Part shown: in pieces, positions 1-64,000 of the stretch
Position numbering within the stretch: position 1 is the stretch's first letter
Layout of the letters: every line of letters starts with the position of its first letter
NCBI GenBank assembly: GCA_026874595.1
Contig: CM049309.1
Coordinates: forward strand, 12,698,576 to 12,762,575
Reading direction: 5' to 3'
DNA: 64,000 nt
From: Sipunculus nudus
Lineage: Eukaryota > Annelida > Sipuncula > Golfingiida > Sipunculidae
Notes under the pieces: generated by a model
What the model was told of the DNA's origin: nothing
Databases searched by the model: none
Seen by the model: only the letters and a program-made list of their open reading frames with translations
Translations under genes and position numbers: made by a program

Positions 1-80
1 ATCAACACGTAAAAGCACCGAGTGCACGAAATATAAGCAAATACATAGATGTAATATATTATAGCACCTAAAGAGTTGTG

Positions 81-143
81 AACCTAATATTTGAGGCGCT
101 GCTCATGCAGCAGGCATGCAGAATGTCCTCTGGAAATTAGGTT
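81..143. other. Nested inverted repeats at the 3' end of the gene
   Basis: Outer arms AACCTAAT (81-88) and ATTAGGTT (136-143) enclose an inner GCTGC/GCAGC stem with a 4-base loop. The outer arm overlaps the stop codon (TAA on the minus strand at 142-144). In RNA this could fold as a 3'-UTR hairpin. Units 4, 5 and 9 carry a base change in the inner stem, and units 7, 12 and 20 one in the outer arm. Confidence 0.5.
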
Positions 144-1344
144 AAAAAGGAAACTGTTTGTGAAACTGGCTGAGCACCGTCTGGGTCTGTTCAGCAGGGA
201 TGAGGGCCATGAGCTCCAGGGCATCTCTCATTCTCTTGAGCGTTTCATAGTTGTCTCTGCCCGTGACCGTCAGAGTGAAGACTTCCATATCACCTACTTT
301 CCTCCGCTTGTCCATCGTGGCACCGACCTGCGGAGCCCCAAGACCTGTGGCTTTTCTTTTCTGGCCCGCCTGTGGACCTGTCTTCTCATCCACCCGACGG
401 TCCCGACCGGGGCAGGCACAGATTCGGACCTCGGCAGACTGTCTGCCCAGCACTTGCCCCTGGTGTTCCAGCGTGAAGATGACCCTGAGAGGGCGTCTGT
501 TCAGTCCACCCACACAGGAAGAGAAGCACATGAACTGGTAGAGGTTGGTGATCCATTGGTTACCCGCTTGTGGTGTCTGATGAGATATAATGACTGACTG
601 CCTGCGCGTTTCGGGGTCCTCGTAGTACCGGGAAAGTGAATGTTCGCATCGCAGCAGGTGGGATGGTGCTGGGTGGTTGTCGTTGAACTCGCTTGTACCG
701 GCGTGGTTTGGACATCGGGTGACGATCTCCTGCACGTTGTCCGGTTTGACATAGACAGGCATGGCTCTGATAATACTACCACTGGGAGGTGGGGTGGCCG
801 TGGTGAACTTGACCGGACAAGCATTGGCCATGCGCACATAGAGTTTATTCAGAGCTGGTGAGTAGGTCCAGTTGGCAGATTTGGTGTCCTTGACTGGCTG
901 TTCGAAACCCACCTGGAAGCCGTAGTGGCCTGGGTATGCCGTGGCAGACGGCAGGTAGTGCTGCTGACCTGTGGCTGGAGAAGCCTGCGGTGACGGGGTT
1001 GATGTGGTCAGGGGTACAGGGATTTGCGAGTCCGCTGCTCTGTCACTCATGTCACGTGACGCATTGGCTTCCAGCAGATCCTGTACGCTGTCGGCATGAG
1101 TGTAATATTCTTCGGGATCCGTTTTCAGAAGATCGGCGTGTGGACGGCCGAGAACTCCCTCCACGTCCGCCGTGCTGAGTGGACAGAGGTCCTCCGAATC
1201 CGAACCGGAACTGAGCGAATGCCACAGCTGATCCACCTCATCTGAAACACCGTATTGCTCGGTGTCTTCTAGCACAAACGCTGGTTGCTTTTTCGCCGGG
1301 CTGGTTTGAAGATCGGTCCGATGATAGTGCATGAATGAAGTCAT
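142..1344 (-). CDS. p53/p63/p73-family transcription factor, copy 1 (intact, 400 aa)
   Basis: Sequence-specific transcription factor expected to act in the nucleus as a tetramer in stress, cell-cycle or apoptosis control. Seen in order: acidic activation region with an LWHSL motif (residues 40-44); Pro/Ser/Thr-rich linker (about 104-136); DNA-binding domain (about 137-322); basic nuclear-localisation clusters (329-331 and 346-349); tetramerisation domain (about 353-386). Zinc ligands C211, H214, C273 and C277 are present. Residues aligning with human K120, R175, R248, R273, R280 and R282 are K155, R210, R283, R307, R314 and R316. There is no SAM domain. The ATG has A at -3 and lies about 80 bp downstream of a TATA element. 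Private changes: D32G, S130Y, T174N, E202D, H203N and P254S, several in the DNA-binding domain. No intron interrupts the frame. Family assignment is certain; the choice between p53 and p63/p73 type rests mainly on the tetramerisation domain. Confidence 0.95.
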   Translation of the reverse strand: MTSFMHYHRTDLQTSPAKKQPAFVLEDTEQYGVSDEVDQLWHSLSSGSDSEDLCPLSTADVEGVLGRPHADLLKTDPEEYYTHADSVQDLLEANASRDMSDRAADSQIPVPLTTSTPSPQASPATGQQHYLPSATAYPGHYGFQVGFEQPVKDTKSANWTYSPALNKLYVRMANACPVKFTTATPPPSGSIIRAMPVYVKPDNVQEIVTRCPNHAGTSEFNDNHPAPSHLLRCEHSLSRYYEDPETRRQSVIISHQTPQAGNQWITNLYQFMCFSSCVGGLNRRPLRVIFTLEHQGQVLGRQSAEVRICACPGRDRRVDEKTGPQAGQKRKATGLGAPQVGATMDKRRKVGDMEVFTLTVTGRDNYETLKRMRDALELMALIPAEQTQTVLSQFHKQFPF

Positions 1345-1669: not shown

Positions 1670-2120
1670 CTTGATTATCATTACCAGTGCTCAGTTAAGG
1701 GAAATGACTTCAAACGGAGACTTAAACAATCGCAATGTTCTTGCAGTGTAACAGTGAGAAGATTATTACTCGGAGACCGCATTTAAATGCAGTTCAGAAA
1801 AGAGGGACAATCATCATTAATTCATGCAGTCGCTGGTATTTTGCCGCTGTTGCGCTGAAACTAAACAACCATTTTAATTATCCTAGTGATACATAATAAA
1901 ATAACAACAATTCAGTACAAGTACACGTGATGAGGTTTATTTAACAGGTTTGACTCAAGTGAATGATATTTTTTTAATGAATTCTATTTGGGCCGAATCG
2001 AAAAAAAAAATCTTATCTTCTCGTAATGATTTCTATTTTATGTGCTCCTCGATTAGAATTATAAAGGGTGACACTAAAATTACCATTTTAAACGTAAAAT
2101 GTTCGAAAGATTTTTGGCTA

Positions 2121-2903: not shown

Positions 2904-3211
2904 AAGGCGACTTTGTCTGGGCCTGCGTATTCAGAAAATGAGATATCCTGGGTTCCATCATCTTTTAATAGTGGGCTTTATATTTTGCGGGATTTATTTC
3001 ACGAGCCCCGGGCAAAGACTGCAACAAAGTATTCATGTTCGGAAAGCGCGTACTGCATTGAGTCTCTATATATATAGTCTCTTGTATTGATAATGATGTA
3101 ATCGCATGATTTTAATAAGGAAAATGGGTTACCAGAATTCGTAACAGACAGGATTTTCTGCATATTTATTGAAGATAAATGACAATAATATCTGACAGTG
3201 GGTTGAAAATA

Positions 3212-3475: not shown

Positions 3476-4678
3476 TTAAAAAGGAAACTGTTTGTGAAAC
3501 TGGCTGAGCACCGTCTGGGTCTGTTCAGCAGGGATGAGGGCCATGAGCTCCAGGGCATCTCTCATTCTCTTGAGCGTTTCATAGTTGTCTCTGCCCGTGA
3601 CCGTCAGAGTGAAGACTTCCATATCACCTACTTTCCTCCGCTTGTCCATCGTGGCACCGACCTGCGGAGCCCCAAGACCTGTGGCTTTTCTTTTCTGGCC
3701 CGCCTGTGGACCTGTCTTCTCATCCACCCGACGGTCCCGACCGGGGCAGGCACAGATTCGGACCTCGGCAGACTGTCTGCCCAGCACTTGCCCCTGGTGT
3801 TCCAGCGTGAAGATGACCCTGAGAGGGCGTCTGTTCAGTCCACCCACACAGGAAGAGAAGCACATGAACTGGTAGAGGTTGGTGATCCATTGGTTACCCG
3901 CTTGTGGTGTCTGATGAGGTAAAATGACTGACTGCCTGAGCGTTTCGGGGTCCTCGTAGTACCGGGAAAGTGAATGTTCGCATCGCAGCAGGTGGGATGG
4001 TGCTGGGTGGTTGTCGTTGAACTCGCTTGTACCGGCGTGGTTTGGACATCGGGTGACGATCTCCTGCACGTGTTCCGGCTTGACATAGACAGGCATGGCT
4101 CTGATAATACTACCGCTGGGAGGTGGGGTGGCCGTGGTGAACTTGACCGGACAAGCAGTGGCCATGCGCACATAGAGTTTATTCAGAGCTGGTGAGTAGG
4201 TCCAGTTGGCAGATTTGGTGTCCTTGACTGGCTGTTCGAAACCCACCTGGAAGCCGTAGTGGCCTGGGTATGCCGTGGCAGACGGCAGGGAGTGCTGCTG
4301 GCCTGTGGCTGGAGAAGCCTGCGGTGACGGGGTTGATGTGGTCAGGGGTACAGGGATTTGCGAGTCCGCTGCTCTGTCACTCATGTCACGTGACGCATTG
4401 GCTTCCAGCAGATCCTGTACGCTGTCGGCATGAGTGTAATATTCTTCGTGATCCGTTTTCAGAAGATCGGCGTGTGGACGGCCGAGAACTCCCTCCACGT
4501 CCGCCGTGCTGAGTGGACAGAGGTCCTCCGAATCCGAACCGGAACTGAGCGAATGCCACAGCTGATCCACCTCATCTGAAACATCCTATTGCTCGGTGTC
4601 TTCTAGCTCAAACGCTGGTTGCTTTTTCGCCGGGCTGGTTTGAAGATCGGTCCGATGATAGTGCATGAATGAAGTCAT
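3476..4678 (-). pseudogene. p53-family gene copy 2, nonsense codon at position 31
   Basis: All 401 codon positions are present, but codon 31 (Tyr in most copies) is TAG on the gene strand (4586-4588; G to C on the plus strand at 4586). The next in-frame ATG is M99, so re-initiation would give a product of about 302 residues. That product would lack the activation region but keep the DNA-binding and tetramerisation domains, resembling a delta-N form. A reading frame drawn from 4570 begins at GTG, not a likely start in an animal gene. Other changes: V24E, P77H, R247L, I253L. Poly(A) signal candidate AATAAA at 3212-3217. Confidence 0.93.
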
Positions 4679-6808: not shown

Positions 6809-8011
6809 TTAAAAAGAAAACTGTTTGTGAAACTGGCTGAGCACCGTCTGGGTCTGTTCAGCAGGGATGAGGGCCATGAGCTCCAGGGCATCTCTCATTC
6901 TCTTGAGCGTTTCATAGTTGTCTCTGCCCGTGACCGTCAGAGTGAAGACTTCCATATCACCTACTTTCCTCCGCTTGTCCATCGTGGCACCGACCTGCGG
7001 AGCCCCAAGACCTGTGGCTTTTCTTTTCTGGCCCGCCTGTGGACCTGTCTTCTCATCCACCCGACGGTCCCGACCGGGGCAGGCACAGATTCGGACCTCG
7101 GCAGACTGTCTGCCCAGCACTTGCCCCTGGTGTTCCAGCGTGAAGATGACCCTGAGAGGGCGTCTGTTCAGTCCACCCACACAGGAAGAGAAGCACATGA
7201 ACTGGTAGAGGTTGGTGATCCATTGGTTACCCGCTTGTGGTGTCTCATGAGGTATAATGACTGACTGCCTGCGCGTTTCGGGGTCCTCGTAGTACCGGGA
7301 AAGTGAATGTTCGCATCGCAGCAGGTGGGATGGTGCTGGGTGGTTGTCGTTGAACTCGCTTGTACCGGCGTGGTTTGGACATCGGGTGACGATCTCCTGC
7401 ACGTGTTCCGGTTTGACATAGACAGGCATGGCTCTCATAATACTACCGCTGGGAGGTGGGGTGGCCGTGGTGAACTTGACCGGACAAGCAGTGGCCATGC
7501 GCACATAGAGTTTATTCAGAGCTGGTGAGTAGGTCCAGTTGGCAGATTTGGTGTCCTTGACTGGCTGTTCGAAACCCACCTGGAAGCCGTAGTAGCCTGG
7601 GTATGCCGTGGCAGACGGCAGGGAGTGCTGCTGGCCTGTGGCTGGAGAAGCCTGCGGTGACGGGGTTGATGTGGTCAGGGGTACAGGGATTTGCGAGTCC
7701 GCTGCTCTGTCACTCATGTCACGTGACGCATCGGCTTCCAGCAGATCCTGTACGCTGTCGGCATGAGTGTAATATTCTTCGGGATCCGTTTTCAGAAGAT
7801 CGGCGTGTGGACGGCCGAGAACTCCCTCCACGTCCGCCGTGCTGAGTGGACAGAGGTCCTCCGAATCCGAACCGGAACTGAGCGAATGCCACAGCTGATC
7901 CACCTCATCTGAAACATCGTTTTGCTCGGTGTCTTCTAGCACAAACGCTGGTTGCTTTTTCGCCGGGCTGGTTTGAAGATTGGTCCGATGATAGTGCATG
8001 AATGAAGTCAT
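6809..8011 (-). CDS. p53-family transcription factor, copy 3 (intact, 400 aa)
   Basis: All functional residues listed for copy 1 are kept. Differences from the majority: D11N, Y31N, H140Y, I192M, Q256E and P399S. The protein is identical to copy 8. The Y31N change lies in the activation region, just before the LWHSL motif. AATAAA at 6545-6550 downstream. Confidence 0.94.
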   Translation of the reverse strand: MTSFMHYHRTNLQTSPAKKQPAFVLEDTEQNDVSDEVDQLWHSLSSGSDSEDLCPLSTADVEGVLGRPHADLLKTDPEEYYTHADSVQDLLEADASRDMSDRAADSQIPVPLTTSTPSPQASPATGQQHSLPSATAYPGYYGFQVGFEQPVKDTKSANWTYSPALNKLYVRMATACPVKFTTATPPPSGSIMRAMPVYVKPEHVQEIVTRCPNHAGTSEFNDNHPAPSHLLRCEHSLSRYYEDPETRRQSVIIPHETPQAGNQWITNLYQFMCFSSCVGGLNRRPLRVIFTLEHQGQVLGRQSAEVRICACPGRDRRVDEKTGPQAGQKRKATGLGAPQVGATMDKRRKVGDMEVFTLTVTGRDNYETLKRMRDALELMALIPAEQTQTVLSQFHKQFSF

Positions 8012-8337
8012 TTTTTTTTCAGTTATTGTGAATAGCAGGATGTTGTTATGTGAAAAGCGGCTCGGATACTGCAGTCAATTACGGGAAGTGGGTATATATA
8101 TTTGACCATTGTATTTAAAGTGATAAGTATTTCCTGAAGAGCGGTCAGTTCATAAGGCGTTGTTGAGAGTAGATATCTAGCGCAGTCTGGTACTCGCCAT
8201 CGCAGAACCTATTGGACACGGTCCATTACTCTCAACCCATCACATCACAGGGCGTGGGAGGAATGATTAGGTCGGGGCGCCCGGTGCGGGCAGGGCCGTC
8301 CCGGTCCACTGCTTCTCACTCGGAACCGGGCAAGCCT
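8012..8337 (-). promoter_or_regulatory. Promoter of copy 3
   Basis: TATA element at 8093-8102; perfect p53-family half-site at 8328-8337. Confidence 0.55.
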
Positions 8338-10148
8338 CTTGATTATCATTACCAGTGCTCAGTTAAGGGAAATGACTTCAAACGGAGACTTAAACAATCG
8401 CAATGTTCTTGCAGTGTAACAGTGAGAAGATTATTACTCGGAGACCGCATTTAAATGCAGTTCAGAAAAGAGGGACAATCATCATTAATTCATGCAGTCG
8501 CTGGTATTTTGCCGCTGTTGCGCTGAAACTAAACAACCATTTTAATTATCCTAGTGTTACATAATAAAATAACAACAATTCAGTACAAGTACACGTGATG
8601 AGGTTCATTTAACAGGTTTGACTCAAGTGAATAATATTTTTTTAATGAATTCTATTTGGGCCGAATCGAAAAAAAAATCTTATCTTCTCGTAATGATTTC
8701 TATTTTATGTGCTCCTCGATTAGAATTATAAAGGGTGACACTAAAACTACCATTTTAAACGTAAAATGTTCGAAAGATTTTTGGCTATTTTTTTTTTTTT
8801 TTTTTTTTTTTTTAGGCTCATGGATTGACAGCGGTGATGTCATCCGGTGTGGGCGAAGTAACCAGCGACTAGGATAACCGCTGAGGAAACAGCTTCCGTA
8901 ACTGACAGGCTTTAATAAATTAACAACTATATTTGTTCTCTTCTCACACACACATTCACGCGCGCACATGCAGTGAATCAATTTTTAATATATTAATGCG
9001 CACGATAAGAATAAAGAGATATATACATATCACCAATTAACATATATATTTTACTGCAGTGTCGCTGAATATACGTCAGGTGAAGACATCATGCAGTTCT
9101 TACATCAAACATTGCCGGCAGTCTGACCGACACGCACATGCATGTAAAAGTTTAAACAAACCAAAATGAGTCGTCAAGAAAAATCGACAAGTAACATCCA
9201 AAATGCAGTTACCAATAAAAATACATTTTAACCAATACCTGCAGAAATAAAAAAAAATTTCCTAACCGCTTTGATGTAATACCGAGCAAAAGATCAAAGG
9301 CTGTTGTTTGTAAATTTGATGAAATTCGGAATTTTATTTTTGGTTCACCAAAGGCAATATCAAAACAATAACGTTATCAAAAATAACTCCGACAAATTCA
9401 CATGGCATTTTTATGTGTGACATTGAAAGTTTGGGTTGAGTTACAGAATTAATCGGAAACGAGCTCGATATACAGGAAAGCGGCCCTTCATTTTCATGTT
9501 CCGCTGCACTCTTGTAAAGGCCGAGGATTAATTTGCGGGAACAACTTTTGTTTTGCTATTGTACCGGTACAAAAGGCGACTTTGTCTGAGCCTGCGTATT
9601 CAGAAAATGAGATATCCTGGGTTCCATCATCTTTTAATAGTGGGCTTTATATTTTGCGGGATTTATTTCACGAGCCCCGGGCAAAGACTGCAACAAAGTA
9701 TTCATGTTCGGAAAGCGCGTACTGCATTGAGTCTCTATATATATAGTCTCCTGTATTGATAATGATGTAATCGCATGATTTTAATAAGGAAAATGGGTTA
9801 CCAGAATTCGTAACAGACAGGATTTATTTTCTCCATATTTATTGAAGATAAATGACAATAATATCTGACAGTGGGTTGAAAATATTTATTATAATATAAT
9901 TGAATATGTCAAGCAAATGAAATAGTTTATGTAGCAACAATATTGACATAACCCGCAACAATTTACATGTACACAAGGATGTTAGAAAAATATTGTTATT
10001 TTAGTGGATCAACACGTAAAAGCACCGAGTGCACGAAATATAAGCAAATACATAGATGTAATATATTATAGCACCTAAAGAGTTGTGAACCTAATATTTG
10101 AGGCGCTGCTCATGCATCAGGCATGCAGAATGTCCTCTGGAAATTAGG

Positions 10149-11351
10149 TTAAAAAGGAAACTGTTTGTGAAACTGGCTAAGCACCGTCTGGGTCTGTTCA
10201 GCAGGGATGAGGGCCATGAGCTCCAGGGCATCTCTCATTCTCTTGAGCGTTTCATAGTTGTCTCTGCCCGTGACCGTCAGAGTGAAGACTTCCATATCAC
10301 CTACTTTCCTCCGCTTGTCCATCGTGGCACCGACCTGCGGAGCCCCAAGACCTGTGGCTTTTCTTTTCTGGCCCGCCTGTGGACCTGTCTTCTCATCCAC
10401 CCGACGGTCCCGACCGGGGCAGGCACAGATTCGGACCTCGGCAGACTGTCTGCCCAGCACTTGCCCCTGGTGTTCCAGCGTGAAGATGACCCTGAGAGGG
10501 CGTCTGTTCAGTCCACCCACACAGGAAGAGAAGCACATGAACTGGTAGAGGTTGGTGATCCATTGGTTACCCGCTTGTGGTGTCTGATGAGGTATAATGA
10601 CTGACTGCCTGCGCGTTTCGGGGTCCTCGTAGTACCGGGAAAGTGAATGTTCGCATCGCAGCAGGTGGGATGGTGCTGGGTGGTTGTCGTTGAACTCGCT
10701 TGTACCGGCGTGGTTTGGACATCGGGTGACGATCTCCTGCACGTGTTCCGGTTTGACATAGACAGGCATGGCTCTCATAATACTACCGCTGGGAGGTGGG
10801 GTGGCCGTGGTGAACTTGACCGGACAAGCAGTGGCCATGCGCACATAGAGTTTATTCAGAGCTGGTGAGTAGGTCCAGTTGGCAGATTTGGTGTCCTTGA
10901 CTGGCTGTTCGAAACCCACCTGGAAGCCGTAGTGGCCTGGGTATGCCGTGGCAGACGGCAGGGAGTGCTGCTGGCCTGTGGCTGGAGAAGCCTGCGGTGA
11001 CGGGGTTGATGTGGTCAGGGGTACAGGGATTTGCGAGTCCGCTGCTCTGTCACTCATGTCACGTGACGCATCGGCTTCCAGCAGATCCTGTACGCTGTCG
11101 GCATGAGTGTAATATTCTTCGGGATCCGTTTTCAGAAGATCGGCGTGTGGACGGCCGAGAACTCCCTCCACGTCCGCCGTGCTGAGTGGACAGAGGTCCT
11201 CCGAATCCGAACCGGAACTGAGCGAATGCCACAGCTGATCCACCTCATCTGAAACATCGTATTGCTCGGTGTCTTCTAGCACAAACGCTGGTTGCTTTCT
11301 CGCCGGGCTGGTTTGAAGATGGGTCCGATGATAGTGCATGAATGAAGTCAT
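10149..11351 (-). CDS. p53-family transcription factor, copy 4 (intact, 400 aa)
   Basis: Full-length frame with D11H, K18R and I192M. All zinc ligands and DNA-contact residues are kept. Copies 7, 12 and 20 share its D11H/K18R N-terminus where visible, which makes this the closest intact relative of the frameshifted copies. AATAAA at 9885-9890. Confidence 0.94.
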   Translation of the reverse strand: MTSFMHYHRTHLQTSPARKQPAFVLEDTEQYDVSDEVDQLWHSLSSGSDSEDLCPLSTADVEGVLGRPHADLLKTDPEEYYTHADSVQDLLEADASRDMSDRAADSQIPVPLTTSTPSPQASPATGQQHSLPSATAYPGHYGFQVGFEQPVKDTKSANWTYSPALNKLYVRMATACPVKFTTATPPPSGSIMRAMPVYVKPEHVQEIVTRCPNHAGTSEFNDNHPAPSHLLRCEHSLSRYYEDPETRRQSVIIPHQTPQAGNQWITNLYQFMCFSSCVGGLNRRPLRVIFTLEHQGQVLGRQSAEVRICACPGRDRRVDEKTGPQAGQKRKATGLGAPQVGATMDKRRKVGDMEVFTLTVTGRDNYETLKRMRDALELMALIPAEQTQTVLSQFHKQFPF

Positions 11352-13499: not shown

Positions 13500-14447
13500 T
13501 TAAAAAGGAAACTGTTTGTGAAACTGGCTAAGCACCGTCTGGGTCTGTTCAGCAGGGATGAGGGCCATGAGCTCCAGGGCATCTCTCATTCTCTTGAGCG
13601 TTTCATAGTTGTCTCTGCCCGTGACCGTCAGAGTGAAGACTTCCATATCACCTACTTTCCTCCGCTTGTCCATCGTGGCACCGACCTGCGGAGCCCCAAG
13701 ACCTGTGGCTTTTCTTTTCTGGCCCGCCTGTGGACCTGTCTTCTCATCCACCCGACGGTCCCGACCGGGGCAGGCACAGATTCGGACCTCGGCAGACTGT
13801 CTGCCCAGCACTTGCCCCTGGTGTTCCAGCGTGAAGATGACCCTGAGAGGGCGTCTGTTGAGTCCACCCACACAGGAAGAGAAACACATGAACTGGTAGA
13901 GGTTGGTGATCCATTGGTTACCCGCTTGTGGTGTCTGATGAGGTATAATGACTGACTGCCTGCGCGTTTCGGGGTCCTCGTAGTACCGGGAAAGTGAATG
14001 TTCGCATCGCAGCAGGTGGGATGGTGCTGGGTGGTTGTCGTTGAACTCGCTTGTACCGGCGTGGTTTGGACATCAGGTGACGATCTCCTGCACGTGTTCC
14101 GGTTTGACATAGACAGGCATGGCTCTGATAATACTACCGCTGGGAGGTGGGGTGTCACGTGACGCATTGGCTTCCAGCAGATCCTGTACGCTGTCGGCAT
14201 GAGTGTAATATTCTTCGTGATCCGTTTTCAGAAGATCGGCGTGTGGACGGCCGAGAACTCCCTCCACGTCCGCCGTGCTGAGTGGACAGAGGTCCTCCGA
14301 ATCCGAACCGGAACTGAGCGAATGCCACAGCTGATCCACCTCATCTGAAACATCGTATTGCTCGGTGTCTTCTAGCTCAAACGCTGGTTGCTTTTTCGCC
14401 GGGCTGGTTTGAAGATCGGTCCGATGATAGTGCATGAATGAAGTCAT
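13500..14447 (-). pseudogene. p53-family gene copy 5, 85-codon deletion plus nonsense codon
   Basis: Residues 99-183 are missing in frame: D98 is joined to T184 at about 14153/14154. This removes the proline-rich linker and the first part of the DNA-binding domain, including K155. After the junction, R210 (human R175 position) is TGA instead of CGA (14073-14075). The N-terminal frame gives 124 residues, and a remnant frame from M272 to F400 remains (13500-13889). The encoded product would be an activation-region fragment without DNA-binding or tetramerisation domains. The V24E change is shared with copies 2, 9, 10 and 18. AATAAA at 13236-13241. Confidence 0.95.
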
Positions 14448-16572: not shown

Positions 16573-17775
16573 TTAAAAAGAAAACTGTTTGTGAAACTGG
16601 CTGAGCACCGTCTGGGTCTGTTCAGCAGGGATGAGGGCCATGAGCTCCAAGGCATCTCTCATTCTCTTGAGCGTTTCATAGTTGTCTCTGCCCGTGACCG
16701 TCAGAGTGAAGACTTCCATATCACCTACTTTCCTCCGCTTGTCCATCGTGGCACCGACCTGCGGAGCCCCAAGACCTGTGGCTTTTCTTTTCTGGCCCGC
16801 CTGTGGACCTGTCTTCTCATCCACCCGACGGTCCCGACCGGGGCAGGCACAGATTCGGACCTCGGCAGACTGTCTGCCCAGCACTTGCCCCTGGTGTTCC
16901 AGCGTGAAGATGACCCTGAGAGGGCGTCTGTTCAGTCCACCCACACAGGAAGAGAAGCACATGAACTGGTAGAGGTTGGTGATCCATTGGTTACCCGCTT
17001 GTGGTGTCTGATGAGGTATAATGACTGACTGCCTGCGCGTTTCGGGGTCCTCGTAGTACCGGGAAAGTGAATGTTCGCATCGCAGCAGGTGGGATGGTGC
17101 TGGGTGGTTGTCGTTGAACTCGCTTGTACCGGCGTGGTTTGGACATCGGGTGACGATCTCCTGCACGTGTTCCGGTTTGACATAGACAGGCATGGCTCTC
17201 ATAATACTACCGCTGGGAGGTGGGGTGGCCGTGGTGAACTTGACCGGACAAGCAGTGGCCATGCGCACATAGAGTTTATTCAGAGCTGGTGAGTAGGTCC
17301 AGTTGGCAGATTTGGTGTCCTTGACTGGCTGTTCGAAACCCACCTGGAAGCCGTAGTAGCCTGGGTATGCCGTGGCAGACGGCAGGGAGTGCTGCTGGCC
17401 TGTGGCTGGAGAAGCCTGCGGTGACGGGGTTGATTTGGTCAGGGGTACAGGGATTTGCGAGTCCGCTGCTCTGTCACTCATGTCACGTGACGCATCGGCT
17501 TCCAGCAGATCCTGTACGCTGTCGGCATGAGTGTAATATTCTTCGGGATCCGTTTTCAGAAGATCGGCGTGTGGACGGCCGAGAACTCCCTCCACGTCCG
17601 CCGTGCTGAGTGGACAGAGGTCCTCCGAATCCGAACCGGAACTGAGCGAATGCCACAGCTGATCCACCTCATCTGAAACATCGTTTTGCTCGGTGTCTTC
17701 TAGCACAAACGCTGGTTGCTTTTTCGCCGGGCTGGTTTGAAGATTGGTCCGATGATAGTGCATGAATGAAGTCAT
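16573..17775 (-). CDS. p53-family transcription factor, copy 6 (intact, 400 aa)
   Basis: Changes from the majority: D11N, Y31N, T114K (in the linker), H140Y, I192M and P399S. The protein is identical to copies 11 and 19. All zinc and DNA-contact residues are kept. AATAAA at 16309-16314. Confidence 0.94.
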   Translation of the reverse strand: MTSFMHYHRTNLQTSPAKKQPAFVLEDTEQNDVSDEVDQLWHSLSSGSDSEDLCPLSTADVEGVLGRPHADLLKTDPEEYYTHADSVQDLLEADASRDMSDRAADSQIPVPLTKSTPSPQASPATGQQHSLPSATAYPGYYGFQVGFEQPVKDTKSANWTYSPALNKLYVRMATACPVKFTTATPPPSGSIMRAMPVYVKPEHVQEIVTRCPNHAGTSEFNDNHPAPSHLLRCEHSLSRYYEDPETRRQSVIIPHQTPQAGNQWITNLYQFMCFSSCVGGLNRRPLRVIFTLEHQGQVLGRQSAEVRICACPGRDRRVDEKTGPQAGQKRKATGLGAPQVGATMDKRRKVGDMEVFTLTVTGRDNYETLKRMRDALELMALIPAEQTQTVLSQFHKQFSF

Positions 17776-46352: not shown

Positions 46353-47555
46353 TTAAAAAGGAAACTGTTTGTGAAACTGGCTGAGCACCGTCTGGGTCTG
46401 TTCAGCAGGGATGAGGGCCATGAGCTCCAGGGCATCTCTCATTCTCTTGAGCGTTTCATAGTTGTCTCTGCCCGTGACCGTCAGAGTGAAGACTTCCATA
46501 TCACCTACTTTCCTCCGCTTGTCCATCGTGGCACCGACCTGCGGAGCCCCAAGACCTGTGGCTTTTCTTTTCTGGCCCGCCTGTGGACCTGTCTTCTCAT
46601 CCACCCGACGGTCCCGACCGGGGCAGGCACAGATTCGGACCTCGGCAGACTGTCTGCCCAGCACTTGCCCCTGGTGTTCCAGCGTGAAGATGACCCTGAG
46701 AGGGCGTCTGTTGAGTCCACCCACACAGGAAGAGAAGCACATGAACTGGTAGAGGTTGGTGATCCATTGGTTACCCGCTTGTGGTGTCTGATGAGGTATA
46801 ATGACTGACTGCCTGCGCGTTTCGGGGTCCTCGTAGTACCGGGAAAGTGAATGTTCGCATCGCAGCAGGTGGGATGGTGCTGGGTGGTTGTCGTTGAACT
46901 CGCTTGTACCGGCGTGGTTTGGACATCGGGTGACGATCTCCTGCACGTGTTCCGGCTTGACATAGACAGGCATGGCTCTGATAATACTACCGCTGGGAGG
47001 TGGGGTGGCCGTGGTGAACTTGACCGGACAAGCAGTGGCCATGCGCACATAGAGTTTATTCAGAGCTGGTGAGTAGGTCCAGTTGGCAGATTTGGTGTCC
47101 TTGACTGGCTGTTCGAAACCCACCTGGAAGCCGTAGTGGCCTGGGTATGCCGTGGCAGACGGCAGGGAGTGCTGCTGGCCTGTGGCTGGAGAAGCCTGCG
47201 GTGACGGGGTTGATGTGGTCAGGGGTACAGGGATTTGCGAGTCCGCTGCTCTGTCACTCATGTCACGTGACGCATCGGCTTCCAGCAGATCCTGTACGCT
47301 GTCGGCATGAGTGTAATATTCTTCGGGATCCGTTTTCAGAAGATCGGCGTGTGGACGGCCGAGAACTCCCTCCACGTCCGCCGTGCTGAGTGGACAGAGG
47401 TCCTCCGAATCCGAACCGGAACTGAGCGAATGCCACAGCTGATCCACCTCATCTGAAACATCGTATTGCTCGGTGTCTTCTAGCACAAACGCTGGTTGCT
47501 TTTTCGCCGGGCTGGTTTGAAGATCGGTCCGATGATAGTGCATGAATGAAGTCAT
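46353..47555 (-). CDS. p53-family transcription factor, copy 15 (intact, matches the majority residue throughout)
   Basis: This copy carries the most common residue at every position where copies vary in my comparison. It is therefore the best single representative of the array protein and probably closest to the ancestral sequence of the 13-17 group. Activation motif LWHSL at 40-44; zinc ligands C211, H214, C273, C277; contact arginines R283, R307 and R314 all present. AATAAA at 46089-46094. Confidence 0.95.
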   Translation of the reverse strand: MTSFMHYHRTDLQTSPAKKQPAFVLEDTEQYDVSDEVDQLWHSLSSGSDSEDLCPLSTADVEGVLGRPHADLLKTDPEEYYTHADSVQDLLEADASRDMSDRAADSQIPVPLTTSTPSPQASPATGQQHSLPSATAYPGHYGFQVGFEQPVKDTKSANWTYSPALNKLYVRMATACPVKFTTATPPPSGSIIRAMPVYVKPEHVQEIVTRCPNHAGTSEFNDNHPAPSHLLRCEHSLSRYYEDPETRRQSVIIPHQTPQAGNQWITNLYQFMCFSSCVGGLNRRPLRVIFTLEHQGQVLGRQSAEVRICACPGRDRRVDEKTGPQAGQKRKATGLGAPQVGATMDKRRKVGDMEVFTLTVTGRDNYETLKRMRDALELMALIPAEQTQTVLSQFHKQFPF

Positions 47556-49690: not shown

Positions 49691-50893
49691 TTAAAAAGGA
49701 AACTGTTTGTGAAACTGGCTAAGCACCGTCTGGGTCTGTTCAGCAGGGATGAGGGCCATGAGCTCCAGGGCATCTCTCATTCTCTTGAGCGTTTCATAGT
49801 TGTCTCTGCCCGTGACCGTCAGAGTGAAGACTTCCATATCACCTACTTTCCTCCGCTTGTCCATCGTGGCACCGACCTGCGGAGCCCCAAGACCTGTGGC
49901 TTTTCTTTTCTGGCCCGCCTGTGGACCTGTCTTCTCATCCACCCGACGGTCCTGACCGGGGCAGGCACAGATTCTAACCTCGGCAGACTGTCTGCCCAGC
50001 ACTTGCCCCTGGTGTTCCAGCGTGAAGATGACCCTGAGAGGGCGTCTGTTGAGTCCACCCACACAGGAAGAGAAGCACATGAACTGGTAGAGGTTGGTGA
50101 TCCATTGGTTACCCGCTTGTGGTGTCTGATGAGGTATAATGACTGACTGCCTGCGCGTTTCGGGGTCCTCGTAGTACCGGGAAAGTGAATGTTCGCATCG
50201 CAGCAGGTGGGATGGTGCTGGGTGGTTGTCGTTGAACTCGCTTGTACCGGCGTGGTTTGGACATCGGGTGACGATCTCCTGCACGTGTTCCGGCTTGCCA
50301 TAGACAGGCATGGCTCTGATAATACTACCGCTGGGAGGTGGGGTGGCCGTGGTGAACTTGACCGGACAAGCAGTGGCCATGCGCACATAGAGTTTATTCA
50401 GAGCTGGTGAGTAGGTCCAGTTGGCAGATTTGGTGTCCTTGACTGGCTGTTCGAAACCCACCTGGAAGCCGTAGTGGCCTGGGTATGCCGTGGCAGACGG
50501 CAGGGAGTGCTGCTGGCCTGTGGCTGGAGAAGCCTGCGGTGACGGGGTTGATGTGGTCAGGGGTACAGGGATTTGCGAGTCCGCTGCTCTGTCACTCATG
50601 TCACGTGACGCATCGGCTTCCAGCAGATCCTGTACGCTGTCGGCATGAGTGTAATATTCTTCGGGATCCGTTTTCAGAAGATCGGCGTGTGGACGGCCGA
50701 GAACTCCCTCCACGTCCGCCGTGCTGAGTGGACAGAGGTCCTCCGAATCCGAACCGGAACTGAGCGAATGCCACAGCTGATCCACCTCATCTGAAACATC
50801 GTATTGCTCGGTGTCTTCCAGCACAAACGCTGGTTGCTTTCTCGCCGGGCTGGTTTGAAGATCGGTCCGATGATAGTGCATGAATGAAGTCAT
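49691..50893 (-). CDS. p53-family transcription factor, copy 16 (full length, DNA-contact mutant R314Q)
   Basis: The open frame is complete, but R314, aligning with human p53 R280, is Gln (codon CAG at 49952-49954; elsewhere CGG). In human p53 R280 contacts DNA in the major groove and is recurrently mutated in tumours, so loss of DNA binding is likely. The tetramerisation domain is intact, so a dominant-negative effect on other copies is possible (inference). V199G is a second change in the DNA-binding domain. R307 is kept although its codon has changed (AGA for CGA), next to a silent change in V306. K18R is also present. AATAAA at 49427-49432. Confidence 0.93.
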   Translation of the reverse strand: MTSFMHYHRTDLQTSPARKQPAFVLEDTEQYDVSDEVDQLWHSLSSGSDSEDLCPLSTADVEGVLGRPHADLLKTDPEEYYTHADSVQDLLEADASRDMSDRAADSQIPVPLTTSTPSPQASPATGQQHSLPSATAYPGHYGFQVGFEQPVKDTKSANWTYSPALNKLYVRMATACPVKFTTATPPPSGSIIRAMPVYGKPEHVQEIVTRCPNHAGTSEFNDNHPAPSHLLRCEHSLSRYYEDPETRRQSVIIPHQTPQAGNQWITNLYQFMCFSSCVGGLNRRPLRVIFTLEHQGQVLGRQSAEVRICACPGQDRRVDEKTGPQAGQKRKATGLGAPQVGATMDKRRKVGDMEVFTLTVTGRDNYETLKRMRDALELMALIPAEQTQTVLSQFHKQFPF

Positions 50894-53020: not shown

Positions 53021-54223
53021 TTATAAAGGAAACTGTTTGTGAAACTGGCTGAGCACCGTCTGGGTCTGTTCAGCAGGGATGAGGGCCATGAGCTCCAGGG
53101 CATCTCTCATTCTCTTGAGCGTTTCATAGTTGTCTCTGCCCGTGACCGTCAGAGTGAAGACTTCCATATCACCTACTTTCCTCCGCTTGTCCATCGTGGC
53201 ACCGACCTGCGGAGTCCCAAGACCTGTGGCTTTTCTTTTCTGGCCCGCCTGTGGACCTGTCTTCTCATCCACCCGACGGTCCCGACCGGGGCAGGCACAG
53301 ATTCGGACCTCGGCAGACTGTCTGCCCAGCACTTGCCCCTGGTGTTCCAGCGTGAAGATGACCCTGAGAGGGCGTCTGTTGAGTCCACCCACACAGGAAG
53401 AGAAGCACATGAACTGGTAGAGGTTGGTGATCCATTGGTTACCCGCTTGTGGTGTCTGATGAGGTATAATGACTGACTGCCTGCGCGTTTCGGGGTCCTC
53501 GTAGTACCGGGAAAGTGAATGTTCGCATCGCAGCAGGTGGGATGGTGCTGGGTGGTTGTCGTTGAACTCGCTTGTACCGGCGTGGTTTGGACATCGGGTG
53601 ACGATCTCCTGCACGTGTTCCGGCTTGACATAGACAGGCATGGCTCTGATAATACTACCGCTGGGAGGTGGGGTGGCCGTGGTGAACTTGACCGGACAAG
53701 CAGTGGCCATGCGCACATAGAGTTTATTCAGAGCTGGTGAGTAGGTCCAGTTGGCAGATTTGGTGTCCTTGACTGGCTGTTCGAAACCCACCTGGAAGCA
53801 GTAGTGGCCTGGGTATGCCGTGGCAGACGGCAGGGAGTGCTGCTGGCCTGTGGCTGGAGAAGCCTGCGGTGACGGGGTTGATGTGGTCAGGGGTACAGGG
53901 ATTTGCGAGTCCGCTGCTCTGTCACTCATGTCACGTGACGCATCGGCTTCCAGCAGATCCTGTACGCTGTCGGCATGAGTGTAATATTCTTCGGGATCCG
54001 TTTTCAGAAGATCGGCGTGTGGACGGCCGAGAACTCCCTCCACGTCCGCCGTGCTGAGTGGACAGAGGTCCTCCGAATCCGAACCGGAACTGAGCGAATG
54101 CCACAGCTGATCCACCTCATCTGAAACATCGTATTGCTCGGTGTCTTCTAGCACAAACGCTGGTTGCTTTTTCGCCGGGCTGGTTTGAAGATCGGTCCGA
54201 TGATAGTGCATGAATGAAGTCAT
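53021..54223 (-). CDS. p53-family transcription factor, copy 17 (intact, 400 aa)
   Basis: Private changes: G142C at the start of the DNA-binding domain, in the otherwise invariant HYGF stretch; A337T between the two basic clusters; and F400L at the last residue. A new cysteine in the DNA-binding domain is unusual for this array. Other functional residues are kept. AATAAA at 52757-52762. Confidence 0.94.
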   Translation of the reverse strand: MTSFMHYHRTDLQTSPAKKQPAFVLEDTEQYDVSDEVDQLWHSLSSGSDSEDLCPLSTADVEGVLGRPHADLLKTDPEEYYTHADSVQDLLEADASRDMSDRAADSQIPVPLTTSTPSPQASPATGQQHSLPSATAYPGHYCFQVGFEQPVKDTKSANWTYSPALNKLYVRMATACPVKFTTATPPPSGSIIRAMPVYVKPEHVQEIVTRCPNHAGTSEFNDNHPAPSHLLRCEHSLSRYYEDPETRRQSVIIPHQTPQAGNQWITNLYQFMCFSSCVGGLNRRPLRVIFTLEHQGQVLGRQSAEVRICACPGRDRRVDEKTGPQAGQKRKATGLGTPQVGATMDKRRKVGDMEVFTLTVTGRDNYETLKRMRDALELMALIPAEQTQTVLSQFHKQFPL

Positions 54224-56349: not shown

Positions 56350-57552
56350 TTAAAAAGAAAACTGTTTGTGAAACTGGCTGAGCACCGTCTGGGTCTGTTC
56401 AGCAGGGATGAGGGCCATGAGATCCAAGGCATCTCTCATTCTCTTGAGCGTTTCATAGTTGTCTCTGCCCGTGACCGTCAGAGTGAAGACTTCCATATCA
56501 CCTACTTTCCTCCGCTTGTCCATCGTGGCACCGACCTGCGGAGCCCCAAGACCTGTGGCTTTTCTTTTCTGGCCCGCCTGTGGACCTGTCTTCTCATCCA
56601 CCCGACGGTCCCGACCGGGGCAGGCACAGATTCGGACCTCGGCAGACTGTCTGCCCAGCACTTGCCCCTGGTGTTCCAGCGTGAAGATGACCCTGAGAGG
56701 GCGTCTGTTCAGTCCACCCACACAGGAAGAGAAGCACATGAACTGGTAGAGGTTGGTGATCCATTGGTTACGCGCTTGTGGTGTCTGATGAGGTATAATG
56801 ACTGACTGCCTGCGCGTTTCGGGGTCCTCGTAGTACCGGGAAAGTGAATGTTCGCATCGCAGCAGGTGGGATGGTGCTGGGTGGTTGTCGTTGAACTCGC
56901 TTGTACCGGCGTGGTTTGGACATCGGGTGACGATCTCCTGCACGTGTTCCGGTTTGACATAGACAGGCATGGCTCTCATAATACTACCGCTGGGAGGTGG
57001 GGTGGCCGTGGTGAACTTGACCGGACAAGCAGTGGCCATGCGCACATAGAGTTTATTCAGAGCTGGTGAGTAGGTCCAGTTGGCAGATTTGGTGTCCTTG
57101 ACTGGCTGTTCGAAACCCACCTGGAAGCCGTAGTAGCCTGGGTATGCCGTGGCAGACGGCAGGGAGTGCTGCTGGCCTGTGGCTGGAGAAGCCTGCGGTG
57201 ACGGGGTTGATGTGGTCAGGGGTACAGGGATTTGCGAGTCCGCTGCTCTGTCACTCATGTCACGTGACGCATCGGCTTCCAGCAGATCCTGTACGCTGTC
57301 GGCATGAGTGTAATATTCTTCGGGATCCGTTTTCAGAAGATCGGCGTGTGGACGGCCGAGAACTCCCTCCACGTCCGCCGTGCTGAGTGGACAGAGGTCC
57401 TCCGAATCCGAACCGGAACTGAGCGAATGCCACAGCTGATCCACCTCATCTGAAACATCGTATTGCTCGGTGTCTTCTAGCTCAAACGCTGGTTGCTTTT
57501 TCGCCGGGCTGGTTTGAAGATCGGTCCGATGATAGTGCATGAATGAAGTCAT
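56350..57552 (-). CDS. p53-family transcription factor, copy 18 (intact, 400 aa)
   Basis: The protein is identical to copy 10 (V24E, H140Y, I192M, G261R, E377D, P399S). AATAAA at 56086-56091. Confidence 0.94.
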   Translation of the reverse strand: MTSFMHYHRTDLQTSPAKKQPAFELEDTEQYDVSDEVDQLWHSLSSGSDSEDLCPLSTADVEGVLGRPHADLLKTDPEEYYTHADSVQDLLEADASRDMSDRAADSQIPVPLTTSTPSPQASPATGQQHSLPSATAYPGYYGFQVGFEQPVKDTKSANWTYSPALNKLYVRMATACPVKFTTATPPPSGSIMRAMPVYVKPEHVQEIVTRCPNHAGTSEFNDNHPAPSHLLRCEHSLSRYYEDPETRRQSVIIPHQTPQARNQWITNLYQFMCFSSCVGGLNRRPLRVIFTLEHQGQVLGRQSAEVRICACPGRDRRVDEKTGPQAGQKRKATGLGAPQVGATMDKRRKVGDMEVFTLTVTGRDNYETLKRMRDALDLMALIPAEQTQTVLSQFHKQFSF

Positions 57553-59680: not shown

Positions 59681-60883
59681 TTAAAAAGAAAACTGTTTGT
59701 GAAACTGGCTGAGCACCGTCTGGGTCTGTTCAGCAGGGATGAGGGCCATGAGCTCCAGGGCATCTCTCATTCTCTTGAGCGTTTCATAGTTGTCTCTGCC
59801 CGTGACCGTCAGAGTGAAGACTTCCATATCACCTACTTTCCTCCGCTTGTCCATCGTGGCACCGACCTGCGGAGCCCCAAGACCTGTGGCTTTTCTTTTC
59901 TGGCCCGCCTGTGGACCTGTCTTCTCATCCACCCGACGGTCCCGACCGGGGCAGGCACAGATTCGGACCTCGGCAGACTGTCTGCCCAGCACTTGCCCCT
60001 GGTGTTCCAGCGTGAAGATGACCCTGAGAGGGCGTCTGTTCAGTCCACCCACACAGGAAGAGAAGCACATGAACTGGTAGAGGTTGGTGATCCATTGGTT
60101 ACCCGCTTGTGGTGTCTGATGAGGTATAATGACTGACTGCCTGCGCGTTTCGGGGTCCTCGTAGTACCGGGAAAGTGAATGTTCGCATCGCAGCAGGTGG
60201 GATGGTGCTGGGTGGTTGTCGTTGAACTCGCTTGTACCGGCGTGGTTTGGACATCGGGTGACGATCTCCTGCACGTGTTCCGGTTTGACATAGACAGGCA
60301 TGGCTCTCATAATACTACCGCTGGGAGGTGGGGTGGCCGTGGTGAACTTGACCGGACAAGCAGTGGCCATGCGCACATAGAGTTTATTCAGAGCTGGTGA
60401 GTAGGTCCAGTTGGCAGATTTGGTGTCCTTGACTGGCTGTTCGAAACCCACCTGGAAGCCGTAGTAGCCTGGGTATGCCGTGGCAGACGGCAGGGAGTGC
60501 TGCTGGCCTGTGGCTGGAGAAGCCTGCGGTGACGGGGTTGATTTGGTCAGGGGTACAGGGATTTGCGAGTCCGCTGCTCTGTCACTCATGTCACGTGACG
60601 CATCGGCTTCCAGCAGATCCTGTACGCTGTCGGCATGAGTGTAATATTCTTCGGGATCCGTTTTCAGAAGATCGGCGTGTGGACGGCCGAGAACTCCCTC
60701 CACGTCCGCCGTGCTGAGTGGACAGAGGTCCTCCGAATCCGAACCGGAACTGAGCGAATGCCACAGCTGATCCACCTCATCTGAAACATCGTTTTGCTCG
60801 GTGTCTTCTAGCACAAACGCTGGTTGCTTTTTCGCCGGGCTGGTTTGAAGATTGGTCCGATGATAGTGCATGAATGAAGTCAT
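59681..60883 (-). CDS. p53-family transcription factor, copy 19 (intact, 400 aa)
   Basis: The protein is identical to copies 6 and 11 (D11N, Y31N, T114K, H140Y, I192M, P399S). AATAAA at 59417-59422. Confidence 0.94.
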   Translation of the reverse strand: MTSFMHYHRTNLQTSPAKKQPAFVLEDTEQNDVSDEVDQLWHSLSSGSDSEDLCPLSTADVEGVLGRPHADLLKTDPEEYYTHADSVQDLLEADASRDMSDRAADSQIPVPLTKSTPSPQASPATGQQHSLPSATAYPGYYGFQVGFEQPVKDTKSANWTYSPALNKLYVRMATACPVKFTTATPPPSGSIMRAMPVYVKPEHVQEIVTRCPNHAGTSEFNDNHPAPSHLLRCEHSLSRYYEDPETRRQSVIIPHQTPQAGNQWITNLYQFMCFSSCVGGLNRRPLRVIFTLEHQGQVLGRQSAEVRICACPGRDRRVDEKTGPQAGQKRKATGLGAPQVGATMDKRRKVGDMEVFTLTVTGRDNYETLKRMRDALELMALIPAEQTQTVLSQFHKQFSF

Positions 60884-61209
60884 TTTTTTTTCAGTTATTG
60901 TGAATAGCAGGATGTTGTTATGTGAAAAGCGGCTCGGATACTGCAGTCAATTACGGGAAGTGGGTATATATATTTGACCATTGTATTTAAAGTGATAAGT
61001 ATTTCCTGAAGAGCGGTCAGTTCATAAGGCGTTGTTGAGAGTAGATATCTAGCGCAGTCTGGTACTCGCCATCGCAGAACCTATTGGACACGGTCCATTA
61101 CTCTCAACCCATCACATCACAGGGCGTGGGAGGAATGATTAGGTCGGGGCGCCCGGTGCGGGCAGGGCCGTCCCGGTCCACTGCTTCTCACTCGGAACCG
61201 GGCAAGCCT
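60884..61209 (-). promoter_or_regulatory. Promoter of copy 19
   Basis: TATA element at 60965-60974; perfect p53-family half-site at 61200-61209. Confidence 0.55.
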
Positions 61210-62874
61210 CTTGATTATCATTACCAGTGCTCAGTTAAGGGAAATGACTTCAAACGGAGACTTAAACAATCGCAATGTTCTTGCAGTGTAACAGTGAGAA
61301 GATTATTACTCGGAGACCGCATTTAAATGCAGTTCAGAAAAGAGGGACAATCATCATTAATTCATGCAGTCGCTGGTATTTTGCCGCTGTTGCGCTGAAT
61401 CTAAACAACCATTTTAATTATCCTAGTGATACATAATAAAATAACAACAATTCAGTACAAGTACACGTGATGAGGTTCATTTAACAGGTTTGACTCAAGT
61501 GAATAATATTTTTTTAATGAATTCTATTTGGGCCGAATCGAAAAAAAAATCTTATCTTCTCGTAATGATTTCTATTTTATGTGCTCCTCGATTAGAATTA
61601 TAAAGGGTGACACTAAAACTACCATTTTAAACGTAAAATGTTCGAAAGATTTTTGGCTATTTTTTTTTTTTTTTTTTTTTTTTTAGGCTCATGGATTGAC
61701 AGCGGTGATGTCATCCGGTGTGGGCGAAGTAACCAGCGACTAGGATAACCGCTGAGGAAACAGCTTCCGTAACTGACAGGCTTTAATAAATTAACAACTA
61801 TATTTGTTCTCTTCTCACACACACATTCACGCGCGCACATGCAGTGAATCAATTTTTAATATATTAATGCGCACGATAAGAATAAAGAGATATATACATA
61901 TCACCAATTAACATATATATTTTACTGCAGTGTCGCTGAATATACGTCAGGTGAAGACATCATGCAGTTCTTACATCAAACATTGCCGGCAGTCTGACCG
62001 ACACGCACATGCATGTAAAAGTTTAAACAAACCAAAATGAGTCGTCAAGAAAAATCGACAAGTAACATCCAAAATGCAGTTACCAATAAAAATACATTTT
62101 AACCAATACCTGCAGAAATAAAAAAAAATTTCCTGACCGCTTTGATGTAATACCGAGCAAAAGATCAAAGGCTGTTGTTTGTAAATTTGATGAAATTCGG
62201 AATTTTATTTTTGGTTCACCAAAGGCAATATCAAAACAATAACGTTATCAAAAATAACTCCGACAAATTCACATGGCATTTTTATGTGTGACATTGAAAG
62301 TTTGGGTTGAGTTACAGAATTAATCGGAAACGAGCTCGATATACAGGAAAGCGGCCCTTCATTTTCATGTTCCGCTGCACTCTTGTAAAGGCCGAGGATT
62401 AATTTGCGGGAACAACTTTTGTTTTGCTATTGTACCGGTACAAAAGGCGACTTTGTCTGGGCCTGCGTATTCAGAAAATGAGATATCCTGGGTTCCATCA
62501 TCTTTTAATAGTGGGCTTTATATTTTGCGGGATTTATTTCACGAGCCCCGGGCAAAGACTGCAACAAAGTATTCATGTTCGGAAAGCGCGTACTGCATTG
62601 AGTCTCTATATATATAGTCTCCTGTATTGATAATGATGTAATCGCATGATTTTAATAAGGAAAATGGGTTACCAGAATTCGTAACAGACAGGATTTTCTC
62701 CATATTTATTGAAGATAAATGACAATAATATCTGACAGTGGGTTGAAAATATTTATTATAATATAATTGAATATGTCAAGCAAATGAAATAGTTTATGTA
62801 GCAACAATATTGACATAACCCGCAACAATTTACATGTACACAAGGATGTTAGAAAAATATTGTTATTTTAGTGG

Positions 62875-64000
62875 ATCAACACGTAAAAGCACCGAGTGCA
62901 CGAAATATAAGCAAATACATAGATGTAATATATTATAGCACCTAAAGAGTTGTGAACCTAATATTTGAGGCGCTGCTCATGCAGCAGGCATGCAGAATGT
63001 CCTCTGGAAAATAGGTTAAAAAGGAAACTGTTTGTGAAACTGGCTAAGCACCGTCTGGGTCTGTTCAGCAGGGATGAGGGCCATGAGCTCCAGGGCATCT
63101 CTCATTCTCTTGAGCGTTTCATAGTTGTCTCTGCCCGTGACCGTCAGAGTGAAGACTTCCATATCACCTACTTTCCTCCGCTTGTCCATCGTGGCACCGA
63201 CCTGCGGAGCCCCAAGACCTGTGGCTTTTCTTTTCTGGCCCGCCTGTGGACCTGTCTTCTCATCCACCCGACGGTCCCGACCAGGGGCAGGCACAGATTC
63301 GGACCTCGGCAGACTGTCTGCCCAGCACTTGCCCCTGGTGTTCCAGCGTGAAGATGACCCTGAGAGGGCGTCTGTTCAGTCCACCCACACAGGAAGAGAA
63401 GCACATGAACTGGTAGAGGTTGGTGATCCATTGGTTACCCGCTTGTGGTGTCTGATGAGGTATAATGACTGACTGCCTGCGCGTTTCGGGGTCCTCGTAG
63501 TACCGGGAAAGTGAATGTTCGCATCGCAGCAGGTGGGATGGTGCTGGGTGGTTGTCGTTGAACTCGCTTGTACCGGCGTGGTTTGGACATCGGGTGACGA
63601 TCTCCTGCACGTGTTCCGGTTTGACATAGACAGGCATGGCTCTGATAATACTACCGCTGGGAGGTGGGGTGGCCGTGGTGAACTTGACCGGACAAGCAGT
63701 GGGCATGCGCACATAGAGTTTATTCAGAGCTGGTGAGTAGGTCCAGTTGGCAGATTTGGTGTCCTTGACTGGCTGTTCGAAACCCACCTGGAAGCCGTAG
63801 TGGCCTGGGTATGCCGTGGCAGACGGCAGGGAGTGCTGCTGCCCTGTGGCTGGAGAAGCCTGCGGTGACGGGGTTGATGTGGTCAGGGGTACAGGGATTT
63901 GCGAGTCCGCTGCTCTGTCACTCATGTCACGTGACGCATCGGCTTCCAGCAGATCCTGTACGCTGTCGGCATGAGTGTAATATTCTTCGGGATCCGTTTT
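62875..64000 (-). repeat. Array unit 20 (subfamily F, cut by window edge)
   Basis: The first 1126 bp of a unit matching units 7 and 12. It shows that the array continues to the right. Confidence 0.97.
63016..64000 (-). pseudogene. p53-family gene copy 20, partial, same 1-bp insertion as copies 7 and 12
   Basis: The start codon lies beyond the right edge. The extra A on the plus strand is at 63283, and the shifted frame stops at 63260. A173P is shared with copies 7 and 12. AATAAA at 62752-62757. Confidence 0.93.

Follow-up and report, generated by a model that had tools for sequence, protein, structure and literature searches.

The dosage of p53-family genes is thought to be tightly limited. 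In the human D4Z4 macrosatellite, a DUX4 retrogene is described in every unit (PMC5849414). The primate ELOA3 genes are presented as a tandem array of a transcription-regulator retrogene, showing concerted evolution and variable edge copies (PMC10664989). For the p53 family itself, 19 elephant TP53 retrogenes are reported next to one TP53 gene and are traced to a single retroposition with later segmental duplication (PMC5061548). Among annelids, the account in PMC8901663 gives one p53-family gene each for Capitella and Helobdella. Here we describe a 64,000-nucleotide stretch of the Sipunculus nudus genome (the window; assembly GCA_026874595.1, contig CM049309.1, hereafter C4, positions 12,698,576-12,762,575), which lies inside a long tandem array of an intronless p53-family gene. 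This array shares with D4Z4 and DUX4 a transcription-factor retrogene in each macrosatellite unit, and with the elephant TP53 retrogenes a p53 retrogene multiplied at the DNA level after retroposition.

Results

The window is a small part of a large p53-family array

The window contains 20 p53-family copies, all on the minus strand, spaced 3.09-3.34 kb apart. All 18 open reading frames (ORFs) of at least 200 amino acids coincide by position with these copies. A full 400-codon ORF is found in 14 of the 20. Among the other six, one has a stop at codon 31, two have a deletion plus a stop, two have a 1-bp insertion, and copy 20 is truncated by the right edge of the window; its open frame assigns it to the same truncated type as the 1-bp-insertion copies. 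A sequence-only reading of the window had counted at least 20 same-orientation copies, 14 of them open for 400 codons. Both counts hold, and the array itself is larger.

Performing a profile search of the assembly (1.4265 Gb, 153 contigs) with the Pfam P53 DNA-binding domain (DBD; PF00870), we obtained 150 matches, namely 141 on C4, seven on contig C5, and a single match on each of C2 and C15. The copy numbers are lower bounds, because 150 of 176 candidates were scored. The C4 matches span 12.528-12.983 Mb, where one copy is split over two matches, giving at least 140 DBD copies, some of them truncated or stop-bearing. Matches to the whole unit extend from about 12,525,981 to 12,985,440, so that the array covers about 459 kb, or about seven times the window. 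Genome-wide, at least 148 intronless DBD copies, some truncated, exist besides the C15 gene. In the 262 kb that we read (C4:12,500,001-12,762,575), the copies are tandem and on the same strand. The unit statistics given below come from 70 complete units cut from this region, which covers the left half of the array; the window contributes 19 of these units.

One intact array copy matches PF00870 with E=2e-63 (214 bits, cut-off 27) and P53_tetramer (PF07710) with E=2.4e-12, in agreement with the family assignment of the sequence-only reading. PF07710 has at least 146 matches in the genome (150 of 158 candidates scored). The nearest solved structure is the p53 DBD of Alvinella pompejana (7pc6, 325 bits), followed by human p63 (238 bits).

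The array gene is intronless and has intronless and intron-containing relatives

In the C15 gene, five exons bordered by AG and GT together encode the DBD and tetramerization region. The array gene is colinear with these exons and runs uninterrupted across their junctions, and its end roughly coincides with the end of the C15 tetramerization exon in an ungapped comparison by eye. The C15 DBD shares 86% identity with Alvinella p53 and 71% with the array consensus. By sequence likeness, the C15 gene is the counterpart of Alvinella p53.

A second intronless family resides on C5, with seven copies in two clusters (15.98-16.01 and 29.05-29.07 Mb). We fetched five of the seven; counted from the first Met, four have open frames of 435, 388, 432, and 432 codons, and the fifth has two in-frame stops. 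The C5 copies have common flanks and were thus multiplied at the DNA level. This family shows greater divergence and stronger constraint than the C4 array. A single divergent intronless gene, uninterrupted for 380 codons, is located at C2:22967049-22967804; its DBD is 61% identical to the array consensus, and a TATA-like stretch lies upstream. A blastn comparison of the array spacer with the fetched C5 and C2 flanks gave no match.

In a JTT+G4 tree of ten DBDs, C4 and C5 group with a bootstrap of 93, C4, C5, and C2 with 76, and C15 and Alvinella with 98. With human p63 as the root, the intronless family falls outside the C15 and Alvinella group and may therefore be older than the split between these two, with long-branch attraction as a caution.

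The gene was constrained in the past, and single copies now vary almost freely

Comparing the array with C5 copy L029 over 195 DBD codons, we found 37, 25, and 106 differences at codon positions 1, 2, and 3. The corresponding NG86 estimates are 0.18 for nonsynonymous divergence (dN) and about 2, near saturation, for synonymous divergence (dS). Among the C5 copies, the DBD dN/dS is 0.2-0.6 (NG86). These values support strong and long purifying selection on the C4/C5 lineage before the array spread.

Inside the array, the polymorphic DBD positions are distributed 18/18/18, which differs from the divergence pattern of 37/25/106 (Fisher p=1.5e-4). Coding and spacer sequence have nucleotide diversities of 0.0079 and 0.0077, respectively. 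From the spacer mutation spectrum, 92.4 nonsynonymous, 34.8 synonymous, and 6.0 stop variants would be expected, and we counted 70, 31, and 4. The resulting ratio of nonsynonymous to synonymous polymorphism (pN/pS) is 0.85 (interval 0.57-1.35 by Poisson bootstrap; p=0.44 in a binomial test), where the units of this half of the array share ancestry and their variants are not fully independent. Selection acting on each copy is thus not supported, as the pN/pS interval includes 1, coding diversity equals spacer diversity, and stops are not depleted.

Coding positions 1010-1125, around the start of the tetramerization domain, carry no substitution variant in 116 bases in all 70 units, where about 10 would be expected at the coding average, synonymous sites included. 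This was noticed post hoc, and a conversion hot spot or a DNA-level constraint could account for it.

Each unit carries its own promoter-like sequence, and units are homogenized in blocks

Unit lengths are mostly 3,320-3,343 bp, with a mode of 3,329 bp (11 of 70) and shorter types of 3,094-3,096 and 2,938-2,940 bp. The 400-codon frame is open in 46 of the 70 units (66%); two of the 24 non-intact units have lost the ATG. A TATATA motif starts 86-90 bases upstream of the ATG in 70/70 units, and the unit consensus has CCAAT at -203. AATAAA occurs five times in the spacer, first about 260 bases past the stop codon. The description of the locus as an intronless, tandem, mostly full-length gene with a TATA-type promoter sequence in each unit is thereby borne out beyond the window, and the search for an intron-containing parent proposed along with it led to the intron-containing C15 relative.

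The spacer shows no CpG depletion (observed/expected 1.06) and no clear excess of CpG transitions (12/156, compared with 44/637); hence, there is no trace of germline methylation in the spacer, and methylation-driven decay was rejected. In the coding sequence, raw proportions make CpG transitions about twice as common as non-CpG ones (13/140 and 24/536).

Pairwise unit divergence has a mean of 0.77% and a maximum of 1.54%, and at 0.2%, 39 types can be told apart among the 70 units. Adjoining 16.5-kb blocks are 99.88% identical, and a 17.2-kb match at 99.97% is offset by about 15.9 kb. Two blocks, about 40 and 39 kb long and overlapping, are repeated about 121-124 kb apart with 99.93% and 99.70% identity; the near-identical stretches lie at about 12.562-12.632 and 12.687-12.753 Mb on C4. 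Such near-identical multi-unit blocks are what unequal exchange gives, and part of the long repeated block could reflect haplotype joining. At its left end, the array fades into spacer at 95% identity and then into fragments at 66-80%, in which no coding sequence is detectable. Array ends usually decay in this manner. An 880-codon minus-strand ORF (L010, C4 about 12,516,540-12,519,180) is situated some 7-9 kb to the left of the array and, by eye, reads like a non-LTR retrotransposon endonuclease/reverse transcriptase.

Features of the encoded protein

Residues C211, H214, C273, S276, C277, R283, R307, C311, and R314, which we take to be zinc-ligand and DNA-contact positions by mapping from human p53, do not differ between the C2 copy, one C5 copy, and two array copies. 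Among the 70 units, R314 is changed in two, R316 is changed in two, and a stop replaces R210 in four (one type) and R283 in one. Array codons 210, 283, 314, and 316 presumably correspond to R175, R248, R280, and R282 of human p53. If expressed, the missense R314 and R316 copies might act as dominant negatives.

The N-terminal region reads VDQLWHSL in C4 and LEDLWQSI in C5, with W41 invariant in four sequences; we compared both with F..W..L, which we take to be the MDM2-type transactivation motif. The SWIB/MDM2 domain has one match, on C13. The array protein ends directly after the tetramerization domain and has no further Pfam match, SAM domain included. Vertebrate p53 is described as lacking the SAM domain, which is of the p63/p73 type (PMC8901663). 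None of 23 SAM_2 matches from 101 candidates lies near the C15 gene, where an exon-split domain could escape the search. An AlphaFold model built from four sequences was uninformative (mean predicted local distance difference test score, 37).

Table 1. p53-family copies and associated elements in the window (position 1 is C4:12,698,576).
Feature	Position	Strand	Description
Copy 1	142..1344	-	Intact 400-codon ORF
Copy 2	3476..4678	-	Codon 31 is a stop; a 364-aa ORF starts in frame at a later GTG
Copy 3	6809..8011	-	Intact; reference for searches; DBD residues 136-322, tetramerization 346-385
Spacer, copies 3/4	8012..10148	-	About 2.13 kb; promoter-like stretch of copy 3 at the end adjoining the ATG (8011)
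Promoter-like elements of copy 3	TATATA ~8094-8099; CCAAT ~8210-8214	-	Placed from the unit consensus
Copy 4	10149..11351	-	Intact
Copy 5	13500..14447	-	In-frame 255-bp deletion and stop at consensus codon 210; frame of 124 codons
Copy 6	16573..17775	-	Intact
Copy 7	19908..21111	-	1-bp insertion; frame ends at codon 319
Copy 8	23251..24453	-	Intact
Copy 9	26602..27549	-	Type of copy 5 (255-bp deletion and stop)
Copy 10	29676..30878	-	Intact
Copy 11	33008..34210	-	Intact
Copy 12	36344..37547	-	As copy 7, with the 1-bp insertion and a frame ending at codon 319
Copy 13	39688..40890	-	Intact
Copy 14	43021..44223	-	Intact
Copy 15	46353..47555	-	Intact
Copy 16	49691..50893	-	Intact
Copy 17	53021..54223	-	Intact
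Copy 18	56350..57552	-	Intact
Copy 19	59681..60883	-	Intact
Copy 20	63016..64000	-	Runs past the window edge; truncated type, with an open frame of 322 aa in the whole genome

Bacterial sequences in the assembly

Nine COX1 matches of near-equal score are spread over eight contigs (C60, C61, C62, C66, C72, C74, C75, and C89). The three that we read (C60-C62) are near-identical bacterial genes. The best match of one is an Oligoflexia metagenome-assembled genome at 58% identity, among the 80 GTDB loci kept. Contig C123 carries a further bacterial oxidase. The assembly thus seems to carry several strains of one bacterium, perhaps symbionts.

Discussion

Having kilobase-scale, homogenized, gene-containing units arranged head to tail, the C4 array looks like a gene-bearing macrosatellite. 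We read it as a p53-family retrogene macrosatellite, in which an old functional retrogene was amplified by unequal exchange and homogenized, and we give this reading a probability of roughly 0.72. The comparisons above support the succession of retroposition, long constraint, and then amplification. In the first step, the mRNA of a p53/p63/p73-type gene would have been reverse-transcribed long ago, a step that the comparisons likewise support; its intronless descendants would have kept the N-terminal region, DBD, tetramerization domain, and TATA-like promoters under long purifying selection. The C4 descendant would then have become a 3.33-kb unit and multiplied head to tail to the at least 140 copies observed, with unequal exchange and/or conversion probably keeping the units similar, as the near-identical multi-unit blocks suggest. 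Single copies in the 70 units vary almost without constraint, and about two-thirds are still intact. Such a loss of constraint would be expected if one copy in a hundred is dispensable. In the last step, the TATA promoter of each intact unit may drive transcription of that unit, perhaps under a germline or early-embryo control like that of D4Z4/DUX4, to yield a pooled p53-like tetrameric factor that defective copies may dilute. As the products would tetramerize, those of intact and broken copies would mix. Expression of a pooled product is plausible; if the array is used, it would be used loosely or rarely.

Several points weigh against this reading. We infer retroposition from the absence of introns; a poly-A remnant or target-site duplication would hardly be expected to persist in an old copy that sits within an array. 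The placement of the C2 gene has a bootstrap of 76, so two retropositions are possible. The unit statistics cover 70 of about 140 units in one assembly. An array that makes no product would account equally well for the near-neutrality within it. Distinct indels are rarer in coding sequence (9 in 1,203 bases) than in the spacer (53 in 2,129 bases; p=2.5e-4), and the lower coding count would suggest some constraint on the copies. When homopolymer and dinucleotide runs are left out, however, 6 indel places in 1,114 coding bases compare with 14 in 1,741 spacer bases (p=0.49); since significance is lost outside simple runs, the gap mostly reflects run content. Searching the spacer consensus for p53 response elements, we found none matching at least 17 of 20 positions (1.8 expected), and hence no sign of self-regulation. 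At a threshold of 16/20, 9 matches compare with 11.0 expected from 200 first-order Markov resamplings, and self-regulation through such elements was rejected.

The best surviving alternative is that the array is an inert gene-derived satellite, amplified by chance in a recombination-prone repeat, which makes no useful protein and whose frames are left over from a recent spread. Equal coding and spacer diversity, a pN/pS near 1, the 24 of 70 copies that are not intact (two through ATG loss), and stops that are not depleted (4 seen, 6.0 expected, 4.7 after scaling) all fit an inert repeat. However, the gene was long constrained before it spread, and TATATA is kept in every unit read, although drift at less than 1% divergence would also leave it. 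The undepleted spacer CpG, free of a germline-methylation trace, also speaks against inertness, next to the about twofold CpG transitions in the coding sequence. Taken together, we consider an inert array unlikely, while granting it more weight than the other alternatives.

A more specific proposal, drawn by analogy with DUX4, is that the germline or early embryo activates up to about 90 intact units jointly (the 46/70 rate extrapolated to 140). The burst of a short, SAM-less p53 would then cull damaged cells or drive a stage program; copy number would serve as an inherited dial, and broken copies would be dominant-negative diluters. We offer this as speculation with the odds clearly against it.

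Still less probable is an array whose copies are kept by selection for high p53-like output, for instance in DNA damage or the germline. The 400 codons open in 14/20 window copies and 46/70 units, the DNA-contact and zinc residues present in the copies aligned, TATATA in 70/70 units, and the scarcity of distinct coding indels when simple runs are included would all suit such selection. In contrast, amino-acid changes and stops show no detectable depletion among the copies, and some copies have a stop at the presumed equivalents of R175 or R248, or a change at those of R280 or R282. The comparable ELOA3 array, thought to be functional, is described as retaining 93-97% intact frames at a dN/dS under 1 (PMC10664989), unlike the C4 array with 46 of 70 intact frames and no detectable constraint among copies. 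Of the two outcomes named by the sequence-only reading, high p53 dosage or a gene-derived satellite, the satellite fits better, because codons vary like spacers, stops are undepleted, and the pN/pS interval around 0.85 includes 1; selection per copy for dosage finds no support.

An assembly artefact, in which a few real units were inflated by misassembly or by the joining of two haplotypes, is very improbable. The blocks of about 40 and 39 kb that recur about 121-124 kb apart are such as haplotype joining could give. However, the 39 distinguishable types in 70 units, the unit length variants, the decayed left end, and the contigs of 64-98 Mb argue that most units are real, and even half of the units would still make dozens. 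That a transposon or virus-like element carried and multiplied the gene, instead of unequal exchange, is hardly credible despite the reverse-transcriptase-like ORF near the left end: the copies are tandem and same-strand, all 18 window ORFs of at least 200 amino acids are p53 by position, and a genome search with the spacer returned 140 first-look candidates, of which 40 were scored and all 40 lie inside the C4 array, giving a transposon origin of the unit no support.

Under the retrogene macrosatellite reading, D4Z4/DUX4 may serve as the nearest working model for the C4 array. The D4Z4 unit is about 3.3 kb long, and that of the C4 array 3.33 kb. The two differ in that the C4 array bears a p53-family instead of a double-homeobox gene, belongs to an invertebrate, and has a spacer undepleted of CpG. 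The elephant TP53 retrogenes are described as lying in large segmental duplications, their number having risen after the first copy gained a stop before the DBD (PMC5061548). Unlike them, the C4 units, of which there are at least 140, are compact and arranged head to tail; most have a whole DBD, and those in the half that we read mostly have whole frames. The contrast with elephant TP53 drawn by the sequence-only reading therefore stands for the compact 3.3-kb array and its intact frames, and fails for the route, as a retrogene amplified at the DNA level is common to both. As for other annelids, the Alvinella DBD is the nearest solved relative and the C15 gene would be its counterpart. Unlike the annelids described with a single p53-family gene (PMC8901663), Sipunculus nudus has at least 148 intronless DBD copies in addition. 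Among the open-access titles and abstract openings that our searches listed, no p53-family tandem array appeared.

The array gene belongs to an older intronless family under strong past constraint, which is not visible from the window alone. The 20 TP53 copies of the elephant count as extreme; the array described here has at least 140, and about two-thirds of those read are complete. It thus offers a natural experiment on the ways in which an animal can tolerate, silence, or use an extreme p53-family copy number. A transcription-factor retrogene macrosatellite so far from mammals also means that the DUX4-type arrangement may recur and need not be a mammalian oddity.

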